Part shown: positions 7,392 through 61,364 of the stretch, in pieces | Layout: every line of letters begins with the position of its first letter | How positions within the stretch are numbered: position 1 is the first letter of the stretch | Assembly: GCF_039555335.1 (NCBI RefSeq) | Contig: NC_092642.1 | Coordinates: 23,417,262 to 23,481,261 of the forward strand | From: Amphiura filiformis | Taxonomy: Eukaryota; Echinodermata; Ophiuroidea; Amphilepidida; Amphiuridae | Direction: 5' to 3' | DNA length: 64,000 nucleotides | Made by a program: the position numbers and the translations under genes | Notes under the pieces: generated by a model | The model's database searches: none | What the model saw: the letters and a program-made list of their open reading frames with translations, nothing else | What the model was told of the DNA's origin: nothing

Positions 7392-7514
7392 CTGCAAATA
7401 TTCAGCATTAAGTATTACAGTATGTTAGTTGCTTTGCACACTAAATTAGATACTTTATCTCTAAGCTAGTTGTGAGACAATTTATTGTTCACATTTAGAC
7501 TACAAAATAAGGTA

Positions 7515-8232: not shown

Positions 8233-9185
8233 CTCCCTATTCCAAAAAAATACAGCACTGATTTTTTTTTTTTTTGGGGGGGGATAAAAATTATCCTCTT
8301 TTACCAAATGAAATAACTTTTGGTATTGCTAAAGAACTTACTAAGAAGTGGACTCCCAGGATGGATGTTATAAATGATGAGAAAGGTAACACTCTTACCG
8401 AAAGTGAAAACATCAAGAGGGGATGGGTTCAGTATAGTTCCCAGATGTTTGAGGCACAAGATGACAAGGTGTATGTACAGTGTGAAACGAGCGAGGAAGA
8501 ACCTCCACCATTGAGATCTGAAGTTGAGTTTGCCATGGAACAAATGAAAAATGCTAAGTCACCTGGCATTGATAATGTAGCTTCTGAGTTGTGGAAGGCA
8601 ACTGGGAAAGAAGGGATAGACCTAATGTGGTGTCTATGTGGTATCATCTGGAAAAAAAGAAGAAATGGCCGGGAGACTGGTGCAGGGCAGTATTTTATTC
8701 CACTACCAAAGAAGGGAAATTTGAAAGAGTGTGCCAATCACCGGACCATCAGCCTGATTTGTCATGCAAGTAAGTGCTTCTGAAGATCATCATCAAGAGA
8801 ATGAAGAACAAAATGGAGCAAGAAATATCTGATGAACAGGCAGGATTTCGTGAAGGAAGGGGGACTAGGGACCAAATTGTCAATATCAGGAATGCGATTG
8901 AGAAATGCAGATAACATAGACTTCCTCTTTACATGTGCTTCATAGATTAAAGTAAAGCTTTTGACGGTGTTAGCCACCCTCAGATGTGGGAAACTATGAA
9001 AAAAAAATGGGTTTCCCAAGTCATCTTGTGGATCTGATCAGCTGCTTATATGAAGACCAAGAATCGGCAGTCAGAGCAAGTAGTGGGGACACAGATTGGT
9101 TCACGATTGGAAGAAGCTTACGACGGGGCTGTGTGCTATCACCAAATTCCAAAATATTGGTGCTGTATTTTGCTGGAATAGGGAG
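8233..9185. mobile_element. TIR element (TA target) carrying an RTE fragment
   Basis: The left end CTCCCTATTCC followed by AAATACAGCA is matched by the inverted right end TGCTGTATTTTGCTGGAATA-GGGAG. Both ends are flanked by TA. The interior from about 8283 to 9150 is almost entirely a decayed RTE-type LINE fragment in plus orientation. A second element with the same ends is at 46272-47024, with a different interior. So the TIRs define the family and the LINE piece is passenger DNA or a nested insertion. Confidence 0.75.
8283..9150 (+). pseudogene. RTE/BovB-like reverse transcriptase fragment 1
   Basis: The plus strand encodes in pieces: a linker to EQMKNAKSPGIDNVASELWK, then YFIPLPKKGNLKECANHRTI, then EISDEQAGFREGRGTRDQI, then SKAFDGVSHPQMWETM, then a DTDWFTIGRSLRRGCVLSPN block. 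These are reverse-transcriptase motifs 1 to 4 in the order and style of the RTE/BovB clade. Stop codons and at least two frameshifts (near 8781 and 9000) interrupt it. The YADD catalytic motif, endonuclease and 3' end are absent, so it is a dead internal fragment. A longer but also broken relative of its right half is at 38706-39222. Confidence 0.85.
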
Positions 9186-9309
9186 TACATCATTATCAAT
9201 GTGCAATTTGTCACTACGCACTCTCCACCAGATGAATGTGTGCAATGACAATGTACACATCGACGTGTTGTATTCTCAAAAAGCTTTTTGGAATTACAGA
9301 AATGGTCTA

Positions 9310-10324
<1,015 letters not shown>

Positions 10325-10651: not shown

Positions 10652-12300
10652 CTAAAAGTGACAGAAAATTAAAACAATAAATCAGGATTTGGATTAGGAA
10701 TGAGAAGGTATGGAAGACAGTTGGAATTCAATCTAAGAAACAATGGAGTGGTTTAATTAGGGATTTAATCAAGTTTCGTCGTTGTTCATCACCATTTAAC
10801 AATGTTCCGCAATGTCTGCAAGTGCAAAGTAAACCATGCAGAAGCGCCGGACGCGAGATGTTAAACGATGGTGAAACATGATTGAATCCCTCACAACGAA
10901 AATTGTGTAATCCACATGATTAAATCATGAGGAATGTCACACCATAGATGAACTCCTGGATGGGGCAGCTTTAATTAGCATTAGGCCGCATTGATATGTA
11001 AATAGCGTATTGTTATTTAAATTTGTGCCCAGACGTATTGAGGGCGACAGTCATGTTATCCAGACGGAGAATGGCTGCATATGCCGGGCATGTCAATTTG
11101 CTGAGTGAAGGCTGATAATCACCTTTCTGTATAGGTAATAAGCTAGTATATTTCGTGTACCAGTTGGTTATAACAAACAATTAGTATCATATTAAATATA
11201 TTAAATGTATAAACTTTGAAATTTACATGAATTTGAAGAGCAGAGCTTCGAAATCTAGCTAAGTCAGGTGATGTGAAATTCTGCTGCGTAACCCCTCTGC
11301 GTGGTAGAATTATATTCATAAAACATTGAATTTAACAGATATCATGGGCAGCCAACCACGATTTATCAGCATTTAAAATATATGTTAATTAACAAAGATA
11401 AATAATAAAGAGTACAAATGGCAATTAACTAGTAAACAAGCCTGAAATCCTAAAATGTTGCCACGTGATTTCCCGAACACATGATATGTCACCATGTGAC
11501 CACTATTCAGATTTACCGTGAATATTTGGAGTATGCTTGCACATCATGCACATACACTGTGCATTTCTTTACCTCCGTATAAAATCAATCATTCATCCTG
11601 GGAGCCAAGTAACATTGTCTGCTCAGTGCAGGTTGGTATTTTATTTTACTTGAGAGCATAATAGAAATACATAAAGACGAATAAGGCGCCATGATGGAAG
11701 GTCAGGTCGGGTATCAAAGGTTATTATAACTTAAATACTACTTGTATTTCACACCTTGCCTCTGTCACATATTTCCTTCATATTATTGACAGCAAGTCCT
11801 AATTTTGACTTTGCTATTGCAAAATGTCATTTCATATCAAATTAGTAGACTTTCTTTGAAAAACATATCACTGGTGCCTGATGGGAATACCCGTCCGCCA
11901 TACCATTAAACTGGATCGTTTTCGTCTGGTTTGTGCCCAGATGTATTGGGGGCGTGCTATACTCTCATTGAACAGGCAAAGTTCGCAAAACTAACAACGT
12001 TGTTATTTGCCAAACTCAATTAACATGATCCAAGGGGTCGAACATGAATTATTCATAACGAGCTATAACGGATCGATAACTGGCCTCACTTTCTAGCTAG
12101 TAAACCAGCTGGATTTTTCATAGATTTTGCGTGGCTAATAGAACAACCGTGAATTTAGTGTCACCCCCTTGGTCACACTCATAGCATGACCTTGAAATAC
12201 AGTGGATACAAAACTCATACTCCACAAAACGGTGTCAACTTTTGAGCTATGATTATTGTATGAAGATGATTGAACCTAGCCATCTGAATAAGACTATTAC
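10652..12300. other. PARG intron, no element identified
   Basis: About 1.6 kb between two PARG exons. Two similar phrases (GTGCCCAGACGTATTG near 11025 and GTGCCCAGATGTATTG near 11933) hint at an old duplicated repeat. I cannot define its ends. No coding sequence is seen. Confidence 0.5.
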
Positions 12301-12437
12301 CTGTAGCATCCCTGCTCCTTCATCTTCTATCATCCCTGATGCAGTCACATGACATTTGGTCCACGCTGCCGTGCTCTTGTCCCATCTTGGTAGCTTTGTC
12401 AAGGCACATCTTGTGAAAGTCAATGTACCGGTAGGAA
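12301..12437 (-). CDS. PARG: PARG exon: start of catalytic domain
   Basis: 137 bases encoding PTGTLTFTRCALTKLPRWDK, then a Trp/His-containing strand and IEDEGAGMLQ. It matches the GLVTFTR to GQGMLQ region at the start of the human catalytic domain. The first two bases complete an Ile codon with the upstream exon. The donor CAG|GTAATA follows a complete Gln codon, so the next exon starts in phase 0. Confidence 0.96.
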
Positions 12438-12540
12438 CTGAAAACAAATGAGAGGTACAATACAAATAATAATCTGTCCTCCCCAAAAAACCAAAAGTAC
12501 TCTTAAATAAAATGTTTGAGTTTCTTTTCCTTACTTTTGT

Positions 12541-12840
12541 GGAGCACGGTGGCCGAGCGGAACGGGCTAGGACTCATAATCTGAAGGTTGCGGGTTCGAG
12601 CCCCGGCGACGCCATCGTGTTGTGCCCTTGAGTAAGGCACTTTATCTCGATTACTCCTCTCCACCCAGGTGTGAAATGGGGAGCTGTTATGAATACTGTC
12701 CATTGAGCGCCGCCCAAAGGTATGAGCATGCCTTGGGCATTGTATGGCAGCTGACATATTCTAATGACGGCGGAATAAATGTAAAGCGCTTTGGTACATG
12801 TTCACATGTGAAAGGCGCTGTATAAATACCAACATTTTTT
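12541..12840 (+). mobile_element. tRNA-derived SINE with L2/CR1-like tail
   Basis: The head has an A box (GGTGGCCGAGCGG) and B box (GGTTCGAGCCC) separated like a Leu/Ser-class tRNA. The body runs through GCGCCGCCCAAAGG. The tail has AAAGCGCTTTGG and AAAGGCGCTGTATAAATACC, which resembles 3' tails shared by SINEs and L2/CR1-like LINEs. It lies in a PARG intron in the opposite orientation to the gene. The tRNA-like part cannot form a proper acceptor stem, so it is not a tRNA gene. Confidence 0.85.
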
Positions 12841-13269: not shown

Positions 13270-13840
13270 ATGGTCAATTGCCATTTGGTCTAAATACCAT
13301 TTTGTCTAATTCCCGTTTAGTCTATATTCAATTGGTCTATTACCAGAAAGGCTAATTGCCACTTAGTCTAATAATCATATAGTCTAATGTCCATTTAGTC
13401 TAATATTGTTTGGTCTAATAACCGGTATGTCTACTAACCATATAGTCTAATAACCATTTGGTCTAATAGTTCTTTAATAATCATTTGGTCTAATAACCGT
13501 TTGGTCTAATAACCGTTAGGTCTAATACTTGTATGGTCTAATAACCAGTTAGTCCAATACCATTTCGTCTATTTATTAATAAACTGAATGCTTGTAAGAC
13601 TAAATGGTGTGTATACCAAATGGGTATTAGACCAAATGGCTATTAAACCTATTGGTTATAGACCAAAGGAGTATTAGACTAAATGGTTGTTAGACTAAAT
13701 GGTTTTAGACTTATTGGTTATTAGACTAAATGGTTATCGGACCAAATGGTTATCGGACCAAATGGTTAAAGGACCAAATGATTGATGGACGTAGTGGATA
13801 TAGACCTAATGGGTTTAGACGAAATGGCAAATCCCCATCT
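13270..13840. repeat. Inverted minisatellite of ATTTGGTCTAATAACC
   Basis: From about 13270 to 13575 a 16-18-base phrase close to AACCATTTGGTCTAAT is repeated about 17 times. From about 13590 to 13840 its reverse complement (ATTAGACTAAATGGTT) is repeated about 14 times. The two halves can fold into one long imperfect hairpin. It lies in a PARG intron. Confidence 0.9.
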
Positions 13841-15758: not shown

Positions 15759-16081
15759 CCGGGGGAGGGGGATACTCAACACAAATGACCATACGGGTAT
15801 GCTCCCCCGGAAAGAGCCCCCTTTTGGATTTCGCAGCTCCGAAAGACCCCCTATATTTGACCAAAATAGAGCTCCGAAAGACCCTTGATTTTGATAATTT
15901 CAGCTCTGAAAGGGTTTTTCATGCGATTTTCAACCAGAAAGCCAAGAAAGACCCTTGATTTGGACTGTTCGCAGCTCCAAAAGACCCCCTTTTATCGGTA
16001 CGCCGTCAGCTCCCAAAGACCCACCACCTCAAAATTCCGAGGGAGCATACCCACCAAAAATTTTTTATGTGCCCCATGGGG
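15759..16081. mobile_element. G-rich hAT-like MITE, copy 1
   Basis: It starts CCGGGGGAGGGGGATACTCA and contains repeated AGCTCCGAAAGACCC phrases. It ends near ATGTGCCCCATGGGG. It is the reverse-orientation relative of the element at 50578-50962, with which it shares ends and internal phrases. Its own target duplication is not clear. Confidence 0.7.
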
Positions 16082-35781: not shown

Positions 35782-36135
35782 TTAAGGGGTACTACACCCT
35801 GGCCAATTTTTGCCTATTTTTGCATTTGTCTCAAAAAATGGTAGCACATTGGTGACAAGTAAGATATGTATATTATAGGGCAAGGACTACAACTACTGTA
35901 CTGAAAATTCAGCAACTCAAAGCAAGTAGTTATTGATTTATTGATCAAATATTGGTTTTCCCTCATTTTTGACTGTAACTCCACAACTGTTGTCTGTGCT
36001 GAAATAAAATTTCCAGTGCAGTAGTTGTAGTCCTTGCCCTATAATATACATATCTTACTTGTCACCAATGCGCTATAATTTTGAGAAAATGCAAAAATAG
36101 GCACAAAATTGTGCAGGGATGTAGTACCCCCTTAA
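35782..36135. mobile_element. piggyBac-like palindromic MITE, copy A
   Basis: Starts TTAAGGGGTACTACACCC and ends GGATGTAGTACCCCCTTAA. The arms pair for about 130 bases, including TATGTATATTATAGGGCAAG and its mate. TTAA at both ends. The relative at 45272-45631 shares the ends and the GCCTATTTTTGCATTT and ATATTATAGGG phrases. Confidence 0.92.
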
Positions 36136-36139
36136 TGAC

Positions 36140-37160
36140 TTGTGTCTTTCTTCCTTTTCTTTAAACAGTTCTCTTGTTCTTTATGCAGACGATACTACTC
36201 TCTTCAAGCCTATCTCTGCTCCTGCTGACTTGGTTGATTTCCAATCCGACATTGATTCCATCCATTCTTGGTTCTCCCTTAATCACCTTTCTGTCAATTC
36301 CTCCAAAACAAAAGTCATGGTCATTTCCACTAAGAAGGACCCTTTTCCGGATCTCAATCTCACTCTTAACAGCATGCCTATTGAACGTGTGTCATCTGCG
36401 AAATTTCTTGGTGTCTGGCTGTCTGACAAGCTTTCCTGGAATCTTCACATCGATAACATATGCAGAAAAGCTCGCAAAATCATCGGCTTCATTCATAGAT
36501 CTTTCCAATCAGCCCCTTCAGCATCCGTCGTTCTTTGTACTTGGCCTTGGTTCGCCCCATTCTGGAGTATGGTTGTACTACTTGGCATCCTCTGAACATA
36601 ACCCTTACCAACCGTCTTGAGTCTACCCAAAGATTCGCCTGCCGTGTCATTCTTCAGTCTTGGAATCTCTCCCATGAGGACCTTCTATTGGATTCCGACC
36701 TGCCTCTTCTTAGTAAGCGTCGTGATGTTGCTTCTCTGTGTCACTTATTTAAAATCTTTGCCAATCTTTGTTCTTCTCCCAACCCTTTCCAGCCGGCATC
36801 CCAGACCCGGTCTACGAAACCTCAATTCCCGCGCTGTTCAAGTTCCTTTCCGTCGGCTTTCATTGTCCCAGAGATCATTTTATCCGTTTGCCTCCTCCAT
36901 CTGGAATTATCTCCCTGAAGCTATTGTCAATGCTTCTTCCCTGCAAGCCTTCAAATTGGCCATCCAGTCCCACCTCCTCTAACCAGTTCACATAATTTAT
37001 GTTTTGTTTTATTTTATTCTGTATTGATTATATGTATTTTCTAGTAATGTTTCTGATTTTAATGTAAGGGCAATCCTTCAATTTATTGTGTAATCAATAT
37101 TGGATCTGCCTGGCCTTGTGCCAAATGTTATAAATAAATAAATATAAATAAATAAAATTT
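36140..37160 (+). pseudogene. CR1/L2-like LINE 3' fragment
   Basis: The plus strand reads SLVLYADDTTLFKPISAPAD (catalytic YADD of the reverse transcriptase), then a helix and KTKVMVISTKKD, then SSAKFLGVWLSDKLSWNLHI. After a frameshift near 36530 it continues LYLALVRPILEYGCTTWHP, and after another near 36790 it ends SSIWNYLPEAIVNASSLQAF and LAIQSHLL-stop at 36982. This order is typical of CR1/L2/Rex-like LINEs. The tail holds GCCTGGCCTTGTGCC and a short ATAAATAAAT microsatellite, the usual 3' end of such elements. The 5' end is truncated immediately next to the TTAA element at 35782-36135. Confidence 0.85.
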
Positions 37161-46271: not shown

Positions 46272-47024
46272 CTCCCTATTGCAGAAAAATACAGCAGTCA
46301 TTTTTTGGATTAAAAAGTATTATCAAGTTCTGCCAAATGAAACATATAGCTCAATCCTAATCATTCATTTAACACTAACTGGCAGGGTCGGATTCACCTT
46401 TTTGGGGGCCCTGGGCCAGGCCAAATTTGGAGGTCCCCACACGCACTGTGAGGAAGGCATGTACACTCGACTCAAGTGCCCAAGTTTTAGATTTTACTAG
46501 GACCGTTGATTAGCACAACAAAATTCAATTTTAACCCAAATTGAAGCTGAATTTTGCTGAATAAGGCCAGTGTGCGCGAAGCTCGAAAATTTTTGAAATT
46601 TGTGTACCCTATTTTGGTCCAAAACATGGTGTTTTCAGCTAAAATGGAAGATGCACACTGCACAGGGCAATTTTGGGGGCCCTGGGCCCGGGCCCATCTG
46701 GCCCTATGGTATATCCAGTCCTGCTAACTGGAGATAAGACAAAAAGTTTACTATTTTACCAATTTCTTGACAAAAGAGCCAAAACATGCAGTTTTGGCAT
46801 GTTTTCTGACAATCAAGTTACAAAAATCTTGCACCAAGCCTAAGCATTCAAAATCTTGAGTTGATGCCGAAATTTTGCTCAAATTTTCACTTTTTTGTAT
46901 TACTTTATTAATGAAACATGTCTTTTCCAAAAACTAGAATGCATAAATTGAAATTAGACTTCGTACAAGTCTTTAGACTTTATTAATCTCAAAAATGAGG
47001 GCTGTATTTTTCCGGAATGGTGAG
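46272..47024. mobile_element. TIR element, relative of 8233-9185, TA target
   Basis: The left end CTCCCTATTGCAGAAAAATA and the inverted right end GGCTGTATTTTTCCGGAATG-GTGAG match the ends of the element at 8233-9185. TA flanks both. The interior differs and contains a hAT-like MITE (46383-46723). Confidence 0.75.
46383..46723. mobile_element. hAT-like MITE, 341 bases, target duplication CTAACTGG
   Basis: An exact CTAACTGG flanks both ends (46375-46382 and 46724-46731). The ends CAGGGTCGGATTCACC and GGTATATCCAGTCCTG are imperfect inverted repeats. Inside both ends are G-rich/C-rich runs (GGGGGCCCTGGGCC). It is nested in the TIR element 46272-47024. Confidence 0.92.
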
Positions 47025-49849
47025 TAGGGCCCTTTACACTGCGGGGATTTTATGGGACTTTGAGGTTTTGTATGGCGTTCTGGTGAACTCGTAGATGTTA
47101 CACATGGGGCAGCTGCCCCCTTGGATATGTCACTGACTGAATCGAACTTTGGACCTCCCCCCTCACGCATTTCCCAACAATTGCCAGACCTTTTCAACTT
47201 GTCCTAGACGTTCGCTTTTCGTATCTCTTTCCTTGTTGGAAAGGTATAACGTTGAGGAGATAGGAACATGTACCGTCATCCGGGACCTACTCTGCCATGT
47301 TTGGCTGAGTAACGGTACATGAACACGGTCTTTTGTGCCTATGTAAATTAGTCATTGTGTAAAGCTGTGTTTATACCCATGGGTTGCTCATCATCAGACT
47401 GAATCCTTGACCGACAGAGGGTGTCAATATAGGCCTACGTGTCGCTTTTGAAAAACAGCGATTTATGCGCATGCTCAGCAGGCAAATACGACGGCGATTT
47501 AGTACACTGATCATGCGTGCGATTCAGATTTCTGCAAAAGCGATTGAGTATAAATGCGTCTTTAGAAATGACTGGCGATTGTGTGTTCTCAAGTGGGTTT
47601 TATCATGTTAATTAGTGACCTGACACACATTTGTATTGGTTCGATCAAGCATTGACTTTTTGTACTGGATCGTTCAAGCATCTCCAACAAATTTTTCAAT
47701 GTAAGTGCCTCTGGCCCTAGTGGAAGTAAAAACGGATACTATGGCCAGAGTTCTAGGGCTAACTTGTCCCGGGAATTTTTGAGATATCGAGCGATGACAA
47801 TTATTTATACATATGAAATCAAACCATTTGCCCGAGATTTATGATAACAGGTTTACATTTGCAATTTACCGTGACCTCTGATTTGATGTTAGACTATACT
47901 CTGCATACGTTTTGACAGTAAAATAAATCTATCGATACACTATAGGCCCAACAATAATAGAATTCTCACCCGCGACAGACTACTGTCTGAAATTATGAGA
48001 TATTATTCACTGATATGACTTACATTGCAAAGAGGTCCGGCAAACCCATATGATAATGCAAATAGACTGCGGAACGAACTCGGTACTCAATAATTAGACA
48101 GCCATGTTTATCTGTGGCCATACGACTTGGAAAAATGGTTCCATCTATGTGTATTCACTCAGTTCCAATAATTGAAACTCCCGGCTCCTCAAACGTTCGA
48201 AATTTGTAGTTACTATACAGCTGGTATTCACTGGACGGCATACCTTAGTGATACTGACATGCATGCCAGTTTTCATGAATTTTTCCCAGTAACAGTTTAT
48301 AGCTGTTTATACATTATAATACATTTTAATACATACCATAATCAATGTGTTTTCGTCCGATACAGGCATGATACGGCTCAATGGGCTGTGATAGTATTCA
48401 ATAGGTAATTGTATAATACTGCAATCCAAAGAACTTTTGTTTGCAAAGATCCTAAATTTGATCCAATGAGATCGATTGTACTTTCTGGCCAACAAAGTAA
48501 CATTCACGCTCATTAGTATTTGTTTATCGCTCGTCGCTATCTACTTGAGTATTAAACAAGCGTAAAGGGAGTGAAGTGGGTTGTTCTCCATATGATTTGA
48601 GGGTAAAACATAGACAACTAGAAGTGCGACCTCTGTCGTCGAACTCGTTTGACATGATTAGAGGGCCAAAACAATTTCAATCAACGGTATCGCACTTTTA
48701 GGGGAGGTAGCGTCAAAATTAAGGGGTCGTTTCGTGATGTATCGCCGATTTCGAGACAGAAAATGCATTTTTCGTGTTGAGGTTGACACCATAGATTATA
48801 TTTTCGTATTTCACCATTTATAAGAACTCGTGCATGTTTCTGAAATTGTGATGTGCTTAAAGTTAAGCCGTTACCCATCTGATGGGTAGCGGACGCCTGC
48901 TTTGGGGTTGCAGGAAGTAAAACGTCCCCCATAATGCATCACAAATCTTAAGTTGATCTAAATCAACCTCATAAAAAATATTTTTGTGATGTCCTTAGTT
49001 TTTGCTTCCAAAACATTTTGTAGGGGGCGCTAATTAATGCTCAAAAAGTCGTTTCACTGGTCTTCTCCACAGCCGAGATGATTCCGCTCACTCAACACAA
49101 ACCGGTGGCGGAGGAGACTACGGTAAAAAAGGGTACGTAAATGCCTGCTGCTGATTCAGTCCTAAATCGCCTGGGAGACTACTAACTGATGGTACGACAA
49201 GCTCCAAATAACAATTTAAAAGCCGGCTGAATGATGAAATGAACCGCGAATAGGAACGAAGAGGAAAGACGTGACTTCTCAGTCCTCTCCCCGCACAGTG
49301 ACATCGCCCGATATCTTCATAGTAGAAATCGCCATGGTAGGTTGAATCCACAGCCACCCATGACCATTTTATTCGGACCTTATGAGATGCATATTATTAG
49401 CGAAGTGACCTGACTAAGGCTACTGACATAGACGGGGTAATTGATTTCTCGCTCTGTGAGCAAGCTTGTATACGACATTGCGGTCAATGGTTATACTCTC
49501 TCCACTTGAGTGAGTGCCGCTATAGCCTGCTATACAAGACCAGCGCAATATAAAATTGAGAGTCTTGGTCAAATTTTGAGTTCAAAGCGCACGGCCAATT
49601 TTCAAAGCGCACGCTAACGACTATAATATCTGTTCAACACGTATTTTCAAGTGTATGAGACCACATCTGGTTTCTTGAGAAAAATTCATTTACGAGAGAT
49701 ATTCATCATTTTCTAACTCAGTATCCGAAGATTTTCGTCTGATATCAAAATCGTGCATAGCAATTCACGTGTATCGATCCCGTGTATTCATTTTAATATC
49801 ACTGCTGCACCAAATAATTATTAGCCAGGCGATGTCGGTGTGCCCCGTA
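47025..49849. other. Unassigned stretch, no gene seen
   Basis: 2.8 kb. AAGGGGTCGTTTCGTGATG near 48721 resembles the end of the TTAA element at 17236, but no mate is seen. The 49030-49360 part is somewhat richer in GC and lacks repeats I know. Its minus-strand open frame at 49118-49357 has no recognised motif. No convincing exon with both splice sites was found. Confidence 0.45.
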
Positions 49850-50577
49850 GTCCTTTTTAACCATTTTAACCATTTTAACCATGTTAATATGATAGTTTTT
49901 AGCGTGTAGTGAAGTATAATTTGTGCTGTAGTGAAGTATAAACTGTGCTGTTCCGTTGGTGCCTGTGTTTCTTCGGTGAAGTGACGTGAAATTGTGTTAT
50001 TTTTTAACCGTGTTGGACAAGTTTACCAGTTGTGTACTCGCCGGGAGTTGCTGCATGTACTACGGGGATCGATGACGACGCCATTTTGGACCTGCATCTC
50101 TACCGTGCTTCATAACAAATACCGCTAAGTCACATAATGTATAACTTAGTCCTCACTTCTTAAATTGTACTTTTTAGCTTAAAACTGCTTGGTGTATGGT
50201 GTGCTCGTCATTATCTGGTCGCATAGCATAGTAACTTTGGATGTTCTCTGTTTGACTTTTAACTTATTTATGATCTGCTGACCAATCATCCGCCATCTTG
50301 AAAGTTAGTCAAGTGTGCCTGCCATTTCTAAATTATTGCATGCTGCCATTGCCATTCTTGCCTGCTTTTAACAACCTCTGCAGCTTCCTCCAGTAGAGTA
50401 GTGCACTATTTCATCCTCTGCATCTCACCATTTGGTAGAAGTATTGCGTGCAGTAGACTTAGTTCCATACCTGCTGTGTGGGCCGGGCGTGGCACTTCAT
50501 CCCCGACCCCGGGTCTGCTGTGTGTATTATTAGCTTTGTGTGTTTCCATCTCCACTCTCTGCCTTCAAAGTACTGCT

Positions 50578-50962
50578 CCCGGGGGGGCACATCAAACAAA
50601 TTTGGTGGGTATGCTCCCCGGAATTTTGAGGTGGTGGGTCTTTGGGAGCTGATGGCGTACCGGTAAAGGGTCTTTCGGAGCTGCGAACCGGGCTGTGAAC
50701 AAGTAAAATGGGGTCTTTTGGAGCTGCGAAAAGTCAAAATCAAGGGTTTTTCTTGGCTTTTTGGTTGAAAATCGCCTGAAAAAACAAGCAATATGAGGAA
50801 TGAGCAACTTTTGGGTCTTTTAAAGCTGAAATTATCAAAATCAAGGGTCTTTCGGAGCTGTATTTTGGTCAAATATAGGGGGTCTTTCGGAGCTGCGAAA
50901 CCCCAAAGGGGATCATTCCGGGGAGCATATCCGTATGGTCATTTGTGTTGAGTGCCCCCGGG
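50578..50962. mobile_element. G-rich hAT-like MITE, copy 2, in the LINE leader
   Basis: An exact 8-base duplication GTACTGCT lies at 50570-50577 and 50963-50970. The ends CCCGGGGGGGCAC and GTGCCCCCGGG are inverted with two extra G on the left. The interior repeats GGGTCTTTCGGAGCTG. It is the same family as 15759-16081 in reverse orientation. It post-dates the LINE it sits in. Confidence 0.93.
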
Positions 50963-51039
50963 GTACTGCTATGATGAAGGTTATAGAAAATGCAGAAGCT
51001 GATAAGCAGCCTGTCTGCCGTACCCGAGTCAGAGGGTTA

Positions 51040-52030
51040 TTAAGCCAAAAATTGACAATGATTATAATTATGACTACCAAGCCCAAAATGGTGACGGAAG
51101 CTCCACTAAAGCTGCCCGCCCGTATGACCTTAATAAGGTGAAATCTCTTCAGAAAAAACAAGAGGCCTGTAGCCGCAGTATTTTTACAAGCCAAGAAAGA
51201 GCGAATGGACAATTAAGACTTACTCTTAGTACTGCTGCGTATAAAGTTTTTCGTGCTACGGTTGCTAAACTAAACCAAATACCAATCCTGTGACGTGTGA
51301 AGAAGATACTGTGAGTAAATCTCCCAGAAACGACAGAAACCGTAACAGTTGCATGGTAAGCAGCGAGTGTAATCAACCCGTGTCCCGAAGCGGAAACATA
51401 TAAGGTAAAAGAAACTGTTAAATCTAAATTTGAGCTTGTCGCTGCTGAAAGTGATAACCACGATGTGGACATTGAAGGTAAGAAGAACAGTCCTGAACAC
51501 ACTGGTGCAAGTATGTCACCACTGCTGATTACGAGATCCCCGACTGAGGATATGCCACAAGTAACACTGCCTAATGAGAGTAAACATGAAAAGACTGCTG
51601 CTGTAAAACACTGTGCCTTAATATCTAGAAAGAAGAATGATGTGCTCCATCTGGAACAGCCACCTAGGAAAACTGAGGATAACAACACCCAACAGCTGGT
51701 GGAAAATAATAGTACCCAAAACTCAACACAGCTTGTGACTATGTGTGGCAAGTTATCTCCGCAAGTAAGTGTTACACCCGAGCCACCTCCATGTATGCCA
51801 AAGCATGCTGGGAAGTCCACTGAACCGCGTAGTCCACTGAACCGCATTGGGATAGCAAGCCCCACCCAGTTGCTCAGCAAGTTATCTCCGCAAGTAAGTG
51901 TTACACCCGCATGTATACCAAAGCATGCTGGAAGTCCACTGAACCGCCTAGGGATAGCAAACCCCACCCAGTTGCTCAGCCTGGCTCTAATATGTCCACT
52001 GCAAAGACGAATATTCCTGAAATCAGACTG
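51040..52030 (+). pseudogene. LINE ORF1, N-terminal remnants
   Basis: Readable pieces are DYNYDYQAQNGDGSSTKAAR then RPYDLNKVKSLQKKQE (about 51060-51260), ETVKSKFELVAAESDN (about 51411-51460), and a continuous stretch from 51465 to 52046 beginning MDIEGKKNSPEHTG. The last piece is Ser/Thr/Pro-rich and contains a direct duplication of about 132 bases (KLSPQVSVTP ... SPLNRIGIA at about 51750-51880, repeated to 51980). Frame changes near 51290 and 51390 separate the pieces. No conserved domain is recognised; it is assigned to ORF1 by position ahead of the coiled coil and ORF2. Confidence 0.5.
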
Positions 52031-52993
52031 CCTACCAATTCCTTAACTAACAGAGCCCAATTACAGGTGAGACTCCCTATTGAGACACAAAGAGATGTGG
52101 TTAATCATCACCCGGTAAGGCCACCTGTATGTAATGACTCTGCCAATGGAAAGGTCAACCATGATCGTCTGTCTATTGAATCTCATCAGGGTGGAAGTAC
52201 CTTTCAAAAGAGCCAATCATCCAATGCACAGAAAAAGCAAGTGATCAAAGACACTAGTAAATCCATTATCGCTCCTAAAGATCAAGCGATTAAAGACAAA
52301 GAAAGGCAATTGAAAATGTGGGAGAAAAATCTCACCAGCAGGGAAGCGGAAGTTGCTTTGAAAGGCAATCAGGCTACTTCTGCAAAAGCGCACATGTCAA
52401 GGCTTGAAGAACAAGTCACAAGGCTTGAGGTTGAGAATAAGACACTTAAATCGTATGTCAGTCCATCTGGCCCCCAGTCTCACCAATTTGTTGAACAAAA
52501 CTGTGTGAGCAACAAAGTGCATACAATTAGGACTGGGAACAACACTCAGAGTATCACTGATCATGCATTGCATAGTAATTCTTTGCAACAAAGGTTGAGT
52601 GATGTGGAACATCGTGTCACCAATAATAAAGTGTCTCTACTGGAGATGAAGGTTGAACAACTCATTCAAGAGAAGCAACTTAGTCATTGTAACCCTTCCA
52701 ATCCACAAAGCCAGCAGCTACCCAGCCTTCACCAACCAGCGGCGATGCAACCTCCGTGCCAGCATCAGCACCAGCCAACCTCGGTACAAGCTCAGCGCAG
52801 AGACATGTGGGCAATGACACCTATAAATCATCACATGTGTGGTCAAGGGCCTACACTGAATTTCATGGGACCTTTCCAGGCTTCCCAATCCCCATGGTTG
52901 CCAAATTGTGCCCAACCTATGTTTCCTATCTCTCCGTTGCACTTGGTTCAACAACATTATTGCTGCTCAAGCTCTGCAATGTATGCAGTATAA
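51911..52993 (+). pseudogene. LINE ORF1, coiled-coil part
   Basis: An open stretch of 360 codons. Residues about 1-120 are polar and low complexity. Residues about 125-185 (KDKERQLKMWEKNL, EAEVALKG, MSRLEEQVTRLEVENKTLKS) form a strong heptad-pattern coiled coil. Residues about 220-255 (LQQRLSDVEHRVTNNK, LLEMKVEQLIQEK) form a second. Then comes a Gln/His/Pro-rich part (QPAAMQPPCQHQHQP). Coiled coils that drive trimerisation are typical of LINE ORF1 proteins. It runs out of frame near 52980 and continues in another frame. Confidence 0.6.
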
Positions 52994-53846
52994 GAATAGG
53001 TTACCCAAGAGGAACCAAGGTCAGTTAAGAATGTATGAGATGTTTAAACCTGACTATAACCAGCGCGGTGTTATGCCTACTGTCCGGACACAGCAGTACA
53101 GTAACGCATACCGTAATACTCATCAGAATCACCCTGACATATCACAAGTCTATGTGAGAAACTCGGTGAAAGAGCAAGTGAATTTTCGCCAAAATTTCAG
53201 TAAAGCTGCAACAGACACGGGTGCAGAAACAGTATACCAGAACCCTGCTGCAAGTGTGACTGTGAACACTAGCAAGACTGTTGACAAGGATGCGACTGCT
53301 TTGACTCTTCAGCACCTTGAAACCAGCATGAGGAAAAAAGGTGGGTCTGTAGTGGTTGATAAGGCCATCTTTGCTGAAGAGAAAAGATGTGCTGCCCCTG
53401 TAAGTGATATTGTGTCTGATGTGCATGCAAAAATTGACCCCAACTCAAACACTGGTGTAACTGATAACAAAAAACTTTGTGTTGGTGCCAAAAACTCCAT
53501 CAATGAAAGCCAGAATTTTGTGGAAGTCGATGTGATGCAAAGAGGTGAGTCTGCAACAATAAGTAGCAACGCGACTACCGACGTAGTGGAAACTATGGCT
53601 GCTAGCTGTGATGCCGCTGATCCTACTTGGCAGTGTACATGCTGTGAAACTAATATGACAAAAGTATTTAAGAAAATCGACAGTGATGTAATTGCCAAAC
53701 ATGACAAAGACGACCTGCCTCGCACCTGCAGTCCAGCTACCATGAGGTATAAAGGTGTGTATAATACTGAGAGCAGTGTGGTAATAACTGATAATATTAA
53801 AATCAAACCGCCGCGCCGCCAAGCTACAGTGAAGCCACCGCAATGA
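52940..53846 (+). pseudogene. LINE ORF1, continuation after a frameshift
   Basis: Continues the previous piece from about 52960 with LQCMQYKNRLPKRNQGQLRM and then a polar stretch of about 270 residues. It ends with a Cys-bearing segment WQCTCCETNMTKVFKKIDSD and TYPICAL-free basic tail IKIKPPRRQATVKPPQ, then a stop. The CxCC cluster is too small to call a zinc knuckle. The stop at 53844-53846 lies immediately before the repeat array, so it may be a mutation that cut off the repeat-coding part of the protein. Confidence 0.55.
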
Positions 53847-53856
53847 ATTTATGTGC

Positions 53857-56730
53857 GTTTAAAGCTGTGCCTCCAGCCAATGTTAAAAGAATTTACCTGC
53901 CAACCACAGTAAAGCTGCCGTGACCAACCAGGATGAGTATAGGACTAATAACACCGGTGCGCCTGGCGTTGATGTTGTCTACAAGCTGCCTACAAGCTAC
54001 AGTGATGTCAACATGTTGAGTCAAGGTGTGAGTAAGACTGGGAGAAAAGCCGTGCCTCTAGACAATGTTAAAACCAATCTGCCTTCAAACCACAGTGAAG
54101 CTGCCATGATCAATCAAGATGAGTTTAAGACTATATACACTGATGCATCTGGCGGTGACGTCATCAAGCTGCCTATAAGCTACAGTGATCAAGTCACCGT
54201 GTTGAATCAAGGTATGAGTAAGACTGTGAAAAAGATGTGCCTACAGACAATGTTAAAACCAATTTACCTTCAAACCACAGTGAAGCTGCCACGACCAATC
54301 AAGATGATTTTATGACTAACAACACTGATGCGCTTGGCGTTGATGTCCACAAGCTGTCCGCAAGCTACAGTGAAGTCACCGTGTTGAATCAAGGTGTGAG
54401 TAAGACCGCGAGAAAAGCTGTGCCTCCAGACAATATTAAAACCGGTTTACTTTCTAACCACAGTGAAGCTGCCACGACCAATCAAGATGAGTTTAAGACT
54501 AACAACACTGCATCTGGCGTTGACGTCATCAAGCTGCCTACAAGCTACAGTGATCAGGTTACCGTGTTGAATCAAGGTGTGAGTAAGACTGTAAAAAAAG
54601 CCACGACCAATCAAGATGAGTTTAAGACTAACAACACTGTTGCATCTGGCGTTGACGTCATCAAGCTGCCTACAAGCTACAGTGATCAAGTCACCGTGTT
54701 GAATCAAGGTATGAGTAAGACTGTGAAAAAAGCCGTGCCTCCAGACAATGTTAAAACCAATTTGCCTTCAAACCAGAGTGAAGCTGCCACGACTAATCAA
54801 GATGAGTTTAAGACTAACAACACTGATGCTTCTGGCGTTGACATCATCAAGCTGCCTACAAGCTACAGTGATCAAGTCACCGTATTGAATCAAGGTGTGA
54901 GTAAGACTGTGAAAAAGCCATGCCTCCAGACAATGTTAAAACCAATTTCCCTTCAAACCACAGTGAAGCTACCACGACCAATCAAGATGAGTTTAAGACT
55001 AACAGCACTGCATCTGGCGTTGACATCATCAAGCTGCCTACAAGCTACAGTGATCAAGTCACCGTGTTGAATCAAGGTATGAGTAAGACTGTGAAAAAAG
55101 CCGTGCCTCCAGACAATGTTAAAACCAATTTGCCTTCAAACCAGAGTGAAGCTGCCACGACTAATCAAGATGAGTTTAAGACTAACAACACTGATGCTTC
55201 TGGCGTTGACATCATCAAGCTGCCTACAAGCTACAGTGATCAAGTCACCGTATTGAATCAAGGTGTGAGTAAGACTGTGAAAAAAGCCATGCCTCCAGAC
55301 AATGTTAAAACCAATTTCCCTTCAAACCACAGTGAAGCTACCACGACCAATCAAGATGAGTTTAAGACTAACAACACTGCATCTGGCGTTGACATCATCA
55401 AGCTGCCTACAAGCTACAGTGATCAAGTCACCGTGTTGAATCAAGGTATGAGTAAGACTGTGAAAAAGCCGTGCCCCCAGACAATGTTAAAACCAATTTG
55501 TCTTCAAACCACAGTGAAGCTGCCACGACCAATCAAGATGAGTTTAAGACTAACAACACTGTTGCATCTGGCGTTGACGTCATCAAGATGCCTACAATCT
55601 ACAGTGATCAAGTCACCGTATTGAATCAAGGTGTGAGTAAGACTGTGAAAAAGCCGTGCCTCCAGACAATGTTAAAACCAGTTTCCTTCAAACCACAGTG
55701 AAGCTACCACGACCAATCAAGATGAGTTTAAGACTAACAACACTGATGCTTCTGGCGTTGACATCATCAAGGTGCCTACAAGCTACAGTGATCAAGTCAC
55801 CGTATTGAATCAAGGTGTGAGTAAGACCGCGAGAAAAGCCGTGCCTCCAGACAATGTTAAAACCGGTTTCCCTTCAAACCACAGTGAAGCTACCACGACC
55901 AATCAAGATGAGTTTAAGACTAACAACACTGCATCTGGCGTTGATGTCATCAAGCTGCCTACAAGCTACAGTGATCAGGTCACCGTGTTGAATCAAGGTG
56001 TGAGTAAGACTGTGAAAAAAGCCACGACCAATCAAGATGAGTTTAAGACTAACAACACTGTTGCATCTGGCGTTGACGTCATCAAGCTGCCTACAAGCTA
56101 CAGTGATCAAGTCACCGTATTGAATCAAGGTGTGAGTAAGACTGTGAAAAAAAGCCGTGCCTCCAGACAATGTTAAAACCAGTTTGCCTTCAAACCACAG
56201 TGAAGCTACCACGACCAATCAAGATGAGTTTAAGACTAACAACACTGTTGCATCTGGCGTTGACGTCATCAAGCTGCCTACAAGCTACAGTGATCAGGTC
56301 ACCGTGTTGAATCAAGGTGTGAGTAAGACTGTGAAAAAAGCCGTGCCTCCAGACAATGTTAAAACCAGTTTCCCTTCAAACCACAGTGAAGCTACCACGA
56401 CCAATCAAGATGAGTTTAAGACTAACAACACTGCATCTGGCGTTGACGTCATCAAGCTGCCTACAAGCTACAGTGATCAGGTCACCGTGTTGAATCAAGG
56501 TGTGAGTAATCAAGTTGAGTTTAAAATTAGCAACATTGACGCGCCTGGCATTGATGTCAACAACCTGTCTGCAAGCTACAGTGAAGTCACCGTGCTGAAT
56601 CAAGGTGTGAGTAAGACTGTGAGAAAAGATGTACCTCCAGACAATATTAAAACTGATTTGCCCTCCAACCACAGTGAAGCTGCCACAGCAGATCAAGATG
56701 AGTTTAAGACTAACAACACTGATGCATCTG
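53857..56730 (+). repeat. Coding tandem array, about 17 units of about 184 bases
   Basis: Each unit codes for a close variant of PPDNVKTNLPSNHSEAATTN, then QDEFKTNNTDASGVDVIKLP, then TSYSDQVTVLNQGVSKTVKK. Units start with the CAAGATGAG word at about 53926, 54109, 54293, 54478, 54604, 54793, 54978, 55166, 55345, 55534, 55718, 55902, 56031, 56216, 56401, 56510 and 56695. Most are 183-189 bases. Two (54478-54604 and 55902-56031) are only about 126-129 bases and lack the PPDNVK...NHSEA part. Outer units are more diverged than central ones, as in unequal-exchange arrays. Base changes keep the reading frame, but several one-base changes in an A run shift it. Confidence 0.95.
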
Positions 56731-56930
56731 ACATTGCACCTGATATAGCTCTTGATATTTCTGAAGACGATAGCTTCTATGATGGAGTAGTATCACCAGC
56801 AAAGGCAACAAAACTAAATACACGTCCAGACCACCATCATTTTTTATGGATGACAAGCCTCTGCAAGGACCGTTGGAAAGAACAAGGGGCGCGACCCAAG
56901 TTGGACCGCATATCAGAATTGCAACAATAA
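56157..56930 (+). CDS. LINE ORF1 C-terminal frame (last repeats plus acidic tail)
   Basis: An uninterrupted frame covering the last four repeat units, then a unique acidic tail DIAPDIALDISEDDSFYDGV and a basic end DRWKEQGARPKLDRISELQQ, stop at 56928-56930. Its last 85 bases overlap the start of ORF2 in a different frame, a layout known for several LINE clades. Whether translation of ORF2 depends on this overlap cannot be judged here. The frame is the undamaged C-terminus of the repeat-bearing protein and not a separate gene. Confidence 0.55.
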   Translation: MPPDNVKTSLPSNHSEATTTNQDEFKTNNTVASGVDVIKLPTSYSDQVTVLNQGVSKTVKKAVPPDNVKTSFPSNHSEATTTNQDEFKTNNTASGVDVIKLPTSYSDQVTVLNQGVSNQVEFKISNIDAPGIDVNNLSASYSEVTVLNQGVSKTVRKDVPPDNIKTDLPSNHSEAATADQDEFKTNNTDASDIAPDIALDISEDDSFYDGVVSPAKATKLNTRPDHHHFLWMTSLCKDRWKEQGARPKLDRISELQQ

Positions 56931-59900
56931 ATATCCAAAATGTCACCAGCAACATGGTCTGCCTTATTGATCTGTTTGGGGAGCATGATGAGGTGTGTGT
57001 GCAGGAGCACAGGCAATTTGAGTTTGAAGCTGCCTCAATGAACAATATCTCGAAATCCCATAAGTGTTTTGCAAAATGTGTTGACAGCAATGATCCTATT
57101 GACTCCTCAAAACGTCCTAGGGGACATGGTGGTGTGGCCATCTATTGGCCATCTACATGGGATAGCATAGTAACAAAGCAACCTGATGGTGACTGGAGGT
57201 TTGCTGTGATTACAATCAAAGGAAAAAGTGCAAACCTCGGTATAATCTGTGCATACATGCCTTGCAGAGGAAAAGGCCATGCAAGTGCTGAATATGAACA
57301 CTACCTGGATATGCTGTGGGCAATCATCAGCAAGTACAGCTCCAAATACATTGTCATTGTCTGTGGAGATCTTAATGCAAATCCTGTCAACCCTAAGGAC
57401 TCGCGTGATAAGGCCCTTGCTGGCTTCTGCGGTGATCATGGCTTGGTTACCACCAAGGACTACTATAGCAATCAATTTTGATTGCTTCATTTTGCTTCAT
57501 TTTTCTTTTGTTTTTCAATTGTTTCTTGTATATATTTTGCATATGTTTTGGTTTTTCACGCTGTGATCTTTTGAAATGGCGTGTAACAAAAGCTCTCATG
57601 TATGTATAGTGGCAACTCTTTTGTGCATAAAGGTGGCCAGAGAGAGTCAAAAATCGACCATTTCCTTAGTCTTGCATGGCAAGAGGATGTTATTGACTAC
57701 GTGTATAAGGCCAACTATCCATCCAACACTTCAGACCACCAACCTATAGTTGCCGTAGTAGAAGACATACTCTCAGCCTCAAGAGAGAACCAATCTGCCA
57801 TACCTGTGATCCAACGCTACGAATGGGACAAAATTGACTTGGCCAAATACAACAGGTACCTACAACAAGAAGAGCTCAGCAAGATCCAGGACTTACCCCT
57901 AAACACAACTAGTGAGATAGACAGCCTTTTGATGCATGTTACAAATGCGATCAAGAAGGCAGCCGATGTTAGTGTACCTTCTAAGCGCATTAAGCAGAAG
58001 AGGCTTAAACACAGAGTCTGGTCACCTGAAATATCCAAGTGTGTGAAGGAAAACAAAGTTGTTTTCTGGGAATTAAAGAATACCAAGTCCGAAGCTGACA
58101 AAATACTTCTGAAAGCAAAGTGCAAGGAGGCTAAGAGTAGACTACGTAGTGCACAGCGTAAAGAACATGCCCTGCAAAAGATTGAGGAATATAATAAAAT
58201 CATGGAAGCGTCTTCAGAAGATGAAATGCTTATGTACAAGATGATCAGAAGGCATAGAAATTCAGCGAAGACTATGCAGTCTGATTTGATGGTTGATGGA
58301 GAACTTGTCACCAACCCTGATGAAGTGAGATCTTGAGAAGTTGGCTACCCCACAGGATGATGCAGCTTTCAATGACAAATTCAAATCTGAAATAGATAGC
58401 AGTGTTGCTGCCATCAAAATCATTAGTACTTACTTGGACTACTACACCCTTTTCTACTGCTGAAGTTACATCTGCTGTTTCAAAACTAAAGAGGAAGAAA
58501 GCGTCTGATTTAGAAAACTAGTGTGCTGAGCATATCATCATGGGAGCACACAGCCTGACTCCAGCCCTTGTTATGCTATTCAACTCAATCCTAGAGCTGT
58601 CTTACATCCCAACAAGCTTCAAAGAAGGAGTGGTTGTTCCAGTACCAAAGAAAGGAAAAGACCATCGTCTCACAGATAATTACAGGGGTATAACCATCAC
58701 ATCGACCATCGGGAAAGTTCTTGAGCACGCAATCCAGCATCGTCTACGAAGTCAGATAGAACACAAGCAGAGTAAACAACAAAGAGGGTTCACTAAGGGT
58801 TCATCGTCCACTAATGCTGCTCTTATATTGTCTGAAGCCATCGCAGAAGCAAAATATAATAACAAAGAGCTGTTTGTCGCTTCACTGGACGCCAAGAAAG
58901 CGTTCGATGTGGTCTACCAGAACGTAATGCTGACAAGCTCTTCTTTGAAGGTTTGGACCCCAGTCTATGGAACCTGATGTATAATCAATACCAAGATGCA
59001 TCAAGTAGAGTCAAGTGGAATGGTTCTCTGTCTAGAGCCTTCAACCTGGAGCAGGGTGTAAGGCAGGGTAGTGTTCTCTCTACAGACTGTTATAAGGTTT
59101 TCATTGATGGTCTACTCAAGGCACTCGAGAAGTCTAGTGTGGATGCAAAGATAGGCAATACATTTGTTGGTTCTCCAACCTGTGCCGACGATGTTCTCCT
59201 CATTGCAGAGTGTATGTCTGATCTACAGTTTATGCTGCAAGTTGTGAATAATTATGCTGCAGATCATAGGTATATCATCCACCCTAATAAGAGCACTGTC
59301 TTGATCTACAACTCCAAGACCCCATTGAGTGTGTGGCAGAAATCGCAGCCCTTTAGACTCGGTGATAAACCCCTTGAAATCTCTACTAGCTGCACTCATC
59401 TTGGAATTCTTCGTTCAACAGAGAAAGAAGACATCCAGTTTGTCGACGAACGTATCCAGCTGGCAAGACGAACTTCATACGCTCTGATGGGAGTAGGCCT
59501 GCATGGTAACAATGGAGTGAATCCTCTCCTTTCAGCCAAGCTTTTGACCATCTATGTTGCGCCAAGATATCTGCACGGCCTTGAAGCAGTAAACATCCAC
59601 CAAGGTGACATCGCCAAGCTAGAAAAGTACCATAAACGCATCCTTAAGCAGATCCAACACTTGCCAGACCGCACGGCTGATGAGGCAGTATACTTGCTTG
59701 CTGGACAGTTGCCTGTTCAGGCTGTATTAGACAAGAAACGCCTCGCCCTGTTTGGAGCAATAGCCAGTGGCAACAGCATCGAAAGAGAGATTGCCTACAG
59801 ACAGCTCAGTACAAAAGATGTTAAATCGAGCAGTTGGTTTATTATGGTCAACTCTGTTCTTTTCCGATATGGGCTTCCGGATGGTCATACTATTCTTGCC

Positions 59901-60476
59901 AATCCTCCAAGTAAAAATGTGTGGAAGGAAACATGCACCAGTGCAATAGATTCTTATTGGTATAACAAGCTTATTGAGAGATCGAAGCACAAAACTTCTC
60001 TGCGTTACATCAGTTGGGATCCCAAGAGTTGCCTTCAACCCCATCATGTCTGGACAACTGTAGATCCAAACACCAAGGACGTCCAACGAGCCGCCATCAA
60101 AGCCAGGCTAATAACAAGGACTTATACTCTTCAAGAGCAGAAGGCCAGGTTCTACCCAGAACATGATGCTACATATCCTCTTTGTGAGGAGGAACCTGAA
60201 TCTACCGAGCACTTCATCCTGCGATGCCAACGCTTACAAGCCACCAGACAAGTACATCTTCAACAAGTACGTGAAGCAGTATCCGCCGTTTATACAGATG
60301 TAGTATGGAACACTATGCAGACACATGACACCCTACAGCTGATCCTAGATTGCACTTTCCCAGGAGCACTGCCAACACCACCCAGCGGTACTGTCCTGAA
60401 AAGTATTGAGGGTGCAACTAGGAGGTTGTGCTTTGCCCTGCACCACTCGCGTGACGAGATTATGAAAGCACAGTAG
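56846..60476 (+). pseudogene. LINE ORF2: APE endonuclease and reverse transcriptase
   Basis: Starts MDDKPLQGPLERT at 56846. Endonuclease motifs in order: IRIATINIQNV, CVQEHR (catalytic Glu), GGVAIYW, VIVCGDLNANP (Asp/Asn), SKIDHFLSL and SDHQPIVA (catalytic His). Reverse transcriptase motifs: VVVPVPKKGK, QQRGFTKGSSSTNAAL, VASLDAKKAFDVV (first Asp), EQGVRQGSVLS and CADDVLLIAE, where CADD replaces the usual YADD. A thumb region follows. Near the C-terminus lies YPLCEEEPESTEHFILRC, a Cys/His motif with the expected first Cys changed. Damage: a 141-base insertion at 57469-57609, frameshifts near 58333, 58445 and 58925, and TAG at 58517-58519. From 58953 to 60476 it is open for 507 codons. Confidence 0.9.
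57469..57609. mobile_element. 136-base insertion in ORF2 with TATAG duplication
   Basis: TATAG at 57464-57468 recurs at 57605-57609. The T-rich sequence between has a small palindrome at its left end (CAATCAATTTTGATTG). Ignoring the 141 bases brings KDYY directly up to SGNSFVHKGG in frame, at the place where the endonuclease fold expects continuity. The insert has in-frame stops and no GT/AG ends, so it is an insertion and not an intron. Confidence 0.85.
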
Positions 60477-60720
60477 CAGTGTCGTCGCCTATTTTAGACA
60501 TATATTTTTGGTGCTTTGGTCAGCATATATATTTTTATTTATTTCTCGTCAAGCAGATGAACTTATTTTTGATGGACTTTTATGATTGATGTTTCTTCGT
60601 CCAATTCCCCTCCCCCCCATCTACCATGGCAACATGGGTGCGTCTACAATAGACGGATCTACGTGAAGAATTGAATTGAATGATTTATGAAAATAAATGA
60701 CTTTGGTTCAGGGAAGTTGA
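60477..60720 (+). other. LINE 3' UTR and tail
   Basis: From the ORF2 stop to about 60720. ATTGAATTGAATGATTTATG and AATAAATGACTTTGG mark a short A/T-rich end rather than a long poly(A). The true 3' end and target duplication cannot be set without a second copy. Confidence 0.45.
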
Positions 60721-61364
60721 ATTTTGCTTGGATTGGAACTTTAGCAGACCAGACAGTAAAACGAATGTCATCTTATAGAGATCATTCATGAACTTGAGAT
60801 CATATTAGTTCTAGTAAATCTTACTCTCACTCGTGCTCTCACTCTTCCTGCAGAATTTACCCGTTTAAAATTCAATCTGCGTAAGAATTTGTGTAGTTCA
60901 CAATGTTGAATGTAAACCAGTAGACAGTAGTTTTCTCTACTGACTATGGTTGCAGGTTGGTCACTACAAATTTCGAACGGTTGAAGACTTGTTACACACA
61001 GGCGTAGATCCTGGGGATGGGGGATTTATCCCCCCAATATTTTGCCAGGGGGATGCTCCATACAATCATCCCCCCAATGTTGACGCCTGAATATAGGTTT
61101 CTGACCAAATTAACCTCATATTTGCCCATTTCAGCCCCAAAAGTGTATTTTTTTATGCATTTTTGCAGAGTTTGTATTCGTTTTTGCATATCAATACCAT
61201 AAACTTAATGACTTTAATGATCCTAGTGTGTACTTTCATGGAGCTGTAGGTAATTAAAAATAATGACACAAGTCAATTAAATGAATTAATGAAATACATT
61301 AGTGAGCCAGACATGTATCAATTTTCAACTTTAAGTGCATATCATTAGATTGATAAACTTAACT
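60721..61364. repeat. Unassigned sequence with a possible CAGGCGT MITE
   Basis: CAGGCGTAGATCC at about 61000 and TTGACGCCTG at about 61080 form short inverted ends around C- and G-rich sequence, like the hAT-type MITEs in this window. The flanks GTTACACA and AATATAGG do not match, so it is only a candidate. The remainder shows nothing. Confidence 0.35.

Follow-up and report, generated by a model that had tools for sequence, protein, structure and literature searches.

Organization of the locus

The analyzed window, 64,000 nucleotides of the brittle star Amphiura filiformis (assembly GCF_039555335.1, contig NC_092642.1, positions 23,417,262 to 23,481,261; coordinates below are counted from its first base), contains a decayed long interspersed nuclear element (LINE) on the plus strand, from ~51 to 60.5 kb. 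Between the coiled-coil part of its first open reading frame (ORF1) and ORF2 lies a tandem array of 17 units whose consensus of 62 codons is AVPPDNVKTNLPSNHSEAATTNQDEFKTNNTDASGVDVIKLPTSYSDQVTVLNQGVSKTVKK. The reading that we favor, as fairly probable, is that of a dead copy of a two-ORF LINE of the apurinic endonuclease (APE) type, in which the C-terminal half of ORF1 holds a coding minisatellite that would have formed a repeat tail of low structure in the active lineage. The array is colinear with the rest of ORF1, with an acidic tail, and with ORF2, which counts in favor of this reading. The coordinates of all features are collected in Table 1.

Tandem Repeats Finder describes the array in seven overlapping rows over 53861-56509, with periods of 132, 183, 186, 187, 368, and 500 bp. 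A preliminary description of this DNA had placed a repeat array at 53857-56930, between the coiled-coil part of ORF1 and ORF2. The array itself was confirmed, with 17 units (u01 to u17) found between 53864 and 56736 by blastn with one unit as the query; its end, however, had been set too far downstream, because the array proper stops at 56736. The remaining part belongs to the open frame 56148-56930, which joins u14-u17 to the acidic tail, just as had been proposed. The unit length was also said to be mostly a multiple of three, and this holds for 9 of the 14 spacings of the anchor AATCAAGGTRTGAGTAA (182, 183, 132, 186, 182, 186, 183, 185, 184, 183, 132, 187, 183, and 105 bp). The five off-frame spacings are explained by a run of A that closes the unit (A5 in u02, u06, u09, and u10; A7 in u13) and by a C-run in u11. 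As for the other length differences, u05 and u13 lack an identical 54 bp, five units share a 3-bp gap and three units a different one, and in u01 there is an additional stretch of 3 bp, with a single base missing away from the terminal run. Units u15-u17 are partial, with a deletion of 78 or 81 bp fusing u15 to u16.

Elsewhere in the window, blastn with the unit yielded only short, chance-level matches. In a search for older, degenerate units ahead of u01, a profile of the unit found nothing convincing outside the array; the match adjoining the array (E = 1.4) is as weak as a distant chance match. At the DNA level, a match to the unit is seen just upstream of u01, at 53820-53869 (E = 0.11).

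Architecture and decay of the element

Assignment to the APE-type LINEs is based on an apurinic-type endonuclease at the start of ORF2, a LINE-type reverse transcriptase, and an ORF1 located upstream of ORF2 in the same orientation, with frames broken by decay. Both ORF2 domains had been anticipated from the sequence and are borne out by Pfam matches to Exo_endo_phos (PF03372; E = 3.5e-6, its 27.4 bits exceeding the cut-off of 24.5) and to RVT_1 (PF00078; E = 7.7e-11 and 1.3e-8). In a phmmer comparison of the ORF2 segment 58863-60476 with the PDB, the best E values were 8.9e-6 for LINE-1 ORF2p chains and 2.4e-5 for R2 chains. The candidate ORF2 start overlaps ORF1 by 85 nt in a different frame, and the translation begins with MDDKPLQG. 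ORF2 has been damaged by an insertion of ~140 bp, by three breaks of the reading frame, and by a single in-frame stop near 58520. The insertion opens with a short palindrome, as judged by eye, and has no second copy within the window. A search for target-site duplications found no common word longer than 10 nt between 47000-53000 and 60440-61200, and the ends of the element were not located.

The upstream part of ORF1 is split into the open frames 51006-51293, 51360-52046, 51833-52993, and 52860-53846. For the third of these, AlphaFold2 predicts two long helices (residues 149-209 and 238-284), with a predicted local distance difference test score (pLDDT) of 75-92 over most of their length, and 254 of the 386 residues of the model score below 50. 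Two long helices predicted amid mostly unstructured sequence fit an ORF1 coiled coil. Weak leucine-zipper-type Pfam matches, below the gathering threshold, fall at residues 185-211 of the same frame. Pfam scans of ORF1 frames and of three frames of 47000-52000, whose sensitivity is limited by the decayed frames, detected neither an RRM nor a CCHC zinc knuckle, a PHD, or an esterase domain. ORF1 also contains a second tandem duplication with a period of 129 bp; its spacings of 129, 120, and 102 bp are all divisible by three, with differences of 9 and 18 bp. Thus, duplications that keep the frame seem to arise readily in this ORF1.

Immediately ahead of the candidate ORF1 start, at 50571-50970, we observed an insertion that resembles a miniature inverted-repeat transposable element, with GC-rich inverted ends and flanking copies of TACTGCT (by eye). 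A relative, 74% identical, is located on the opposite strand at 15768-16075.

Table 1. Features of the LINE copy and of its repeat array (coordinates within the window)
Feature	Coordinates	Strand	Basis
Upstream part of LINE ORF1, split into several open frames	50971..53846	+	Open frames; candidate ATG at 50971 by eye
Second in-frame tandem duplication in ORF1, two copies	51748..51980	+	Repeat search; both copies in open frame 51360-52046
Coiled-coil part of ORF1 (predicted), two separated helices (61 and 47 residues)	52277..52684	+	AlphaFold2 single-sequence model
Tandem array, 17 units with a 186-bp consensus (62 codons)	53864..56736	+	Tandem Repeats Finder, blastn, unit alignment
Possibly recent 368-bp doubling, u06-u07 repeated as u08-u09	54732..55467	+	Pairwise counts 0 and 1; unit alignment
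Acidic C-terminal tail of ORF1	56737..56930	+	Open frame 56148-56930, in frame with u14-u17
Start of ORF2 and endonuclease domain	56846..57478	+	Open frame 56783-57481; candidate ATG at 56846; Exo_endo_phos
Insertion of ~140 bp interrupting the endonuclease region	57466..57606		Three-frame reading, limits by eye
Remaining ORF2, with the reverse transcriptase and the C-terminal part	57587..60476	+	Open frames, Pfam, phmmer

Evidence for translation of the array

The codon usage of one unit agrees with that of the upstream ORF1 with a cosine of 0.816, a value above those of all 2000 randomly drawn 186-bp pieces from segment 1-47000 of the window (mean 0.584, maximum 0.784); true ORF1 pieces average 0.732. 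When 15 of the 17 units are considered together (u01 and u11 were excluded for internal frameshifts), the sense frame has a cosine of 0.853 and no stops, and the other five frames have cosines of 0.47-0.64 and 13-119 stops. Because the codon usage matches and the open frame is free of stops, there is good evidence that the repeat unit represents ORF1 coding sequence.

The pattern of length changes was assessed in a tally that was set up post hoc and excluded homopolymer indels. Within the array, five of the six indels outside homopolymers are divisible by three (P = 0.018, given a chance of one-third). If the 186-bp period is counted too, together with the ORF1 duplication (129 bp, with differences of 9 and 18 bp), nine of ten are in frame (P = 3.6e-4). 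Translation of the array as a part of ORF1 in the active ancestor, suggested in the preliminary description, is very probable and is supported by codon usage, by the lack of stops in these 15 units, and by the in-frame indels.

Age and growth of the array

The distance to the nearest other unit is 16% for u01, 6% for u02, 10% for u03, 14% for u16, and 13% for u17, where pairs with fewer than 90 shared sites were disregarded. From approximately eight frame breaks (by eye) and one stop, with assumed ratios, the decay of the element was estimated as 0.6-2.5% per copy. At this decay, two units that were alike at insertion would now be expected to differ by ~1-5%. The divergence of 10-16% observed for four edge units (u01, u03, u16, and u17) clearly exceeds this expectation, and therefore several units appear to predate the insertion. 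Thus, the estimate supports a multi-unit array older than the insertion of the LINE.

Other parts of the array look much younger. Between the blocks u06-u07 and u08-u09, a single substitution is seen in 367 bp, besides two differences of A-run length; u06 and u08 have no substitutions between them, and u07/u09 and u14/u15 have one each. Such likeness of the two 368-bp blocks is improbable if the decay is at least 1% (P = 0.005 at 1%), so the last doubling, or a conversion, may have been recent and local. Gene conversion would blur both dating arguments, that from the old edge units and that from the young doubling.

An alternative is the local birth of a satellite: ORF1 would have started with one unit or a few, and the bulk of the array would have formed at this locus through unequal recombination once the element was dead. 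The near-identity of the core units and the likeness of the twin blocks are as expected in this scenario, and singletons in core units account for just 10 substitution types. The unit of ~184 bp is also close to the nucleosome-repeat length, as are the units of many satellites. On the other hand, u01, u03, u16, u17, and the core stand 10-16% apart, above the estimated decay, which places several units before the insertion, and every indel common to more than one unit (3, 3, and 54 bp) preserves the frame. On balance, we consider predominantly local growth unlikely.

Constraint on the unit and possible role of the tail

The 17 units contain 90 distinct types of substitution, 30 synonymous and 60 nonsynonymous (gaps and columns absent from the unit consensus were omitted from all substitution counts). 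With the same kinds of change placed at random, 25.5±4.0 synonymous types are expected (P = 0.16). Similar results were obtained for the types confined to edge units (18 of 60 synonymous, 17.1 expected; P = 0.43) and for those in core units (12 of 30, 8.6 expected; P = 0.11). Among the six frames, the open frame has the highest number of synonymous changes (30; 18-28 in the others). A simple pairwise omega for five edge versus three core units is 0.57 (15 single pairs ranging from 0.16 to 1.17), a value uncorrected for the substitution spectrum; taken from distinct events, omega comes to 0.79 (95% interval 0.50-1.27). Thus, a synonymous excess between units, which the preliminary description had named as one test of its proposal, did not reach significance, and selection on the amino acids of the repeat is unsupported. 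These counts disfavor strong constraint on the unit (omega below about 0.5) and are compatible with a weak one. Constraint on the frame can apparently be seen in the array, and constraint on the sequence cannot be demonstrated from it (P = 0.16).

For three units, AlphaFold2 with an alignment of six sequences predicts no fold (mean pLDDT 29.5). Because such an alignment is shallow, the missing fold is weak evidence of disorder. By charge and hydropathy the unit falls on the border between order and disorder (0.418 versus a boundary of 0.419). Most likely, the tail was a tolerated, flexible extension of ORF1, variable in length and making at most weak repeated contacts.

While the lineage was active, ORF1 would have had a coiled coil followed by several 62-residue units, forming a long tail of low structure, and would have closed with a short acidic stretch. 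Units would have been gained and lost by unequal recombination or copying slippage, with only in-frame products persisting and the residues drifting nearly freely. After insertion, the copy would have decayed, and at least the last doubling of units was perhaps local.

A more specific possibility is that the number of repeats was kept by selection for many weak binding sites in ORF1, yielding a multivalent or condensate-forming tail. Condensation has been reported to be necessary for human L1 (PMC10202459, as summarized there). The in-frame upkeep, the high copy number, the predicted coiled coil upstream, the lack of a predicted fold, and the pairwise omega of 0.57 could all be read in this way. 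However, the synonymous excess is not significant once the substitution spectrum is kept, the interval of the distinct-event omega extends above 1, and the unit contains no recognized binding motif. With regard to the multivalent or phase-separating tail suggested in the preliminary description, the missing predicted fold is compatible with such a role, which is possible. Selection on repeat number for this purpose is improbable in our estimate. The related proposal of a tail of ~1000 residues, selected in frame for its length, that would act as a multivalent ribonucleoprotein scaffold and stand separate from the known ORF1 domain types, also appears quite unlikely.

Several points speak against a translated, low-structure repeat tail that predates the insertion. 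The structural prediction relied on the shallow alignment of six sequences, and the unit is not clearly placed in the disordered half of the charge-hydropathy plot. The indel test was post hoc and omits six homopolymer frameshifts; with these counted, 5 of 12 indels in the array are divisible by three. The synonymous excess is not significant (30 of 90, P = 0.16). For u02, at 6% from its nearest unit, an origin before the insertion is not clear, and the lesion counts and ratios behind the decay estimate are rough. The likeness of the twin blocks points to partial local expansion. Finally, a second copy of the LINE was not found in viral, plasmid, and prokaryotic collections. With ORF2 (58863-60476) as the query, no relative was confirmed in plasmid, viral, or genome contigs (17 pattern matches in the latter, none confirmed). 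The repeat unit had no DNA relative in viral contigs, and as protein it gave 8 pattern matches in viral contigs and 97 in genome contigs, none of them confirmed. These collections cover viruses, plasmids, and prokaryotes, and the lack of confirmed matches is therefore hardly informative for animals.

We also considered that the number of units or the homopolymer lengths might reflect sequencing or assembly errors. Six frameshifts of the array do fall in homopolymer runs, and the two nearly identical 368-bp blocks adjoin each other. Nevertheless, all unit pairs except u06/u08 differ by at least one substitution, and the edge units are clearly distinct. Thus, the array is real whatever its exact length, and an artifact is decidedly improbable.

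Resemblance of the unit to DDE_1

The preliminary description had called for a search of the unit in profile and protein databases. A resemblance did emerge at the profile level, below the gathering threshold; no relative of the unit was found in the PDB. Twelve of the 17 units match DDE_1 (PF03184) at E values up to 1 (best 3.3e-4), and no match was obtained for u01, u02, u03, u16, or u17 with the tail. None of the single units scanned attains the gathering score (best 20.7 versus 22 bits). In the units shown, the matches cover profile positions 86-128, a stretch containing LPTSYSDQVTVLNQGV, which we take to resemble a motif of pogo/Tigger transposases. In core units such as 54417-54599, the likeness is presumably to the region near the last catalytic residue, with Asn in place of the transposase Asp. 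The match of the whole frame (E = 9.4e-12) was set aside as mostly a sum over near-identical repeats. For the same reason, we dismissed the weaker matches of the repeated frame to DUF6200, EutQ, and other families; PDB matches to cellulosome scaffolds (E = 0.03) were taken as chance. Capture by ORF1 of a fragment of a pogo/Tigger-type DDE transposase near its third catalytic residue, followed by amplification, would account for the 12 unit matches and for the summed whole-frame score, but this origin is very improbable given that the best unit is below the threshold, that five units have no match, that the 12 matching units are near-copies and hence not independent, and that no relative is seen in the PDB. 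The likeness of the unit to DDE_1 is probably due to chance.

Comparison with known systems

The closest precedent for a coding repeat tail is, on a far smaller scale, the in-frame repeat region of mouse L1 ORF1, in which the number of 66- and 42-bp units has changed several times, according to the summary in PMC3600994. In both cases, tandem repeats of in-frame size reside in a LINE ORF1 and change in number by whole units. The mouse region, as outlined there, has few units and alters the length of the coiled coil, whereas here 17 units of ~186 bp follow it: the array is located downstream of the predicted helices, and three of its units have no predicted fold.

In the classification of 448 elements of the Jockey superfamily, ORF1 types are distinguished by RRM, zinc knuckle, coiled coil, PHD, and esterase domains (PMC4120745, in outline). 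The Pfam matches expected for types I, III, and IV and for the RRM of type II were absent from our decayed frames. With regard to domain content only, the element is similar to the unclassified type V, in which the ORF1 likewise belongs to an APE-type LINE and none of the RRM, zinc knuckle, PHD, and esterase domains is detected. The outline of type V in PMC4120745 describes no long tandem array such as the 17 units of the present ORF1.

A tandem array inside a retrotransposon is also known from the soybean Gmr9/GmOgre minisatellites; relative to these, as summarized in PMC3305785, the array described here is placed within the coding frame of a LINE. Many in-frame tandem units occur in predicted animal proteins of Nematostella, but the outline of that proteome survey (PMC2805694) gives 10-12 residues as the commonest unit and describes no link to LINEs. 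In searches of the open-licence PMC literature, none of the titles and abstract openings listed mentioned long tandem repeats within the ORF1 of a LINE.

Beyond a few domain types, little is understood about the ORF1 proteins of LINEs, which are diverse. If the array was indeed translated, a coding minisatellite of 62-residue units, changing in number by recombination, would mean that a tail of ~1000 residues is tolerated, or used, by ORF1, and it would offer a natural length series for testing the effect of ORF1 multivalency on retrotransposition. If the growth was mostly local, the locus would clearly illustrate how a satellite-like array can arise within a dead LINE.

Other features of the window

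Two likely exons of a poly(ADP-ribose) glycohydrolase gene are located on the minus strand at 7149-7424 and 12253-12573 (PARG_cat_C, E = 2.9e-23, and 0.0064, the latter below the gathering threshold). A second reverse transcriptase remnant is found at 36125-36595 (RVT_1, E = 6.7e-6, below gathering). The region 8262-9390 resembles a reverse transcriptase by eye, with no Pfam match at E up to 0.01. Scans of the window for Rfam families (at the gathering threshold) and for tRNAs found nothing. Two further tandem arrays are present, one at 3948-4616 with ~12 copies of a 55-bp unit, and another at 13281-13827, where 16-bp units are followed by units that appear by eye to be complementary to them.
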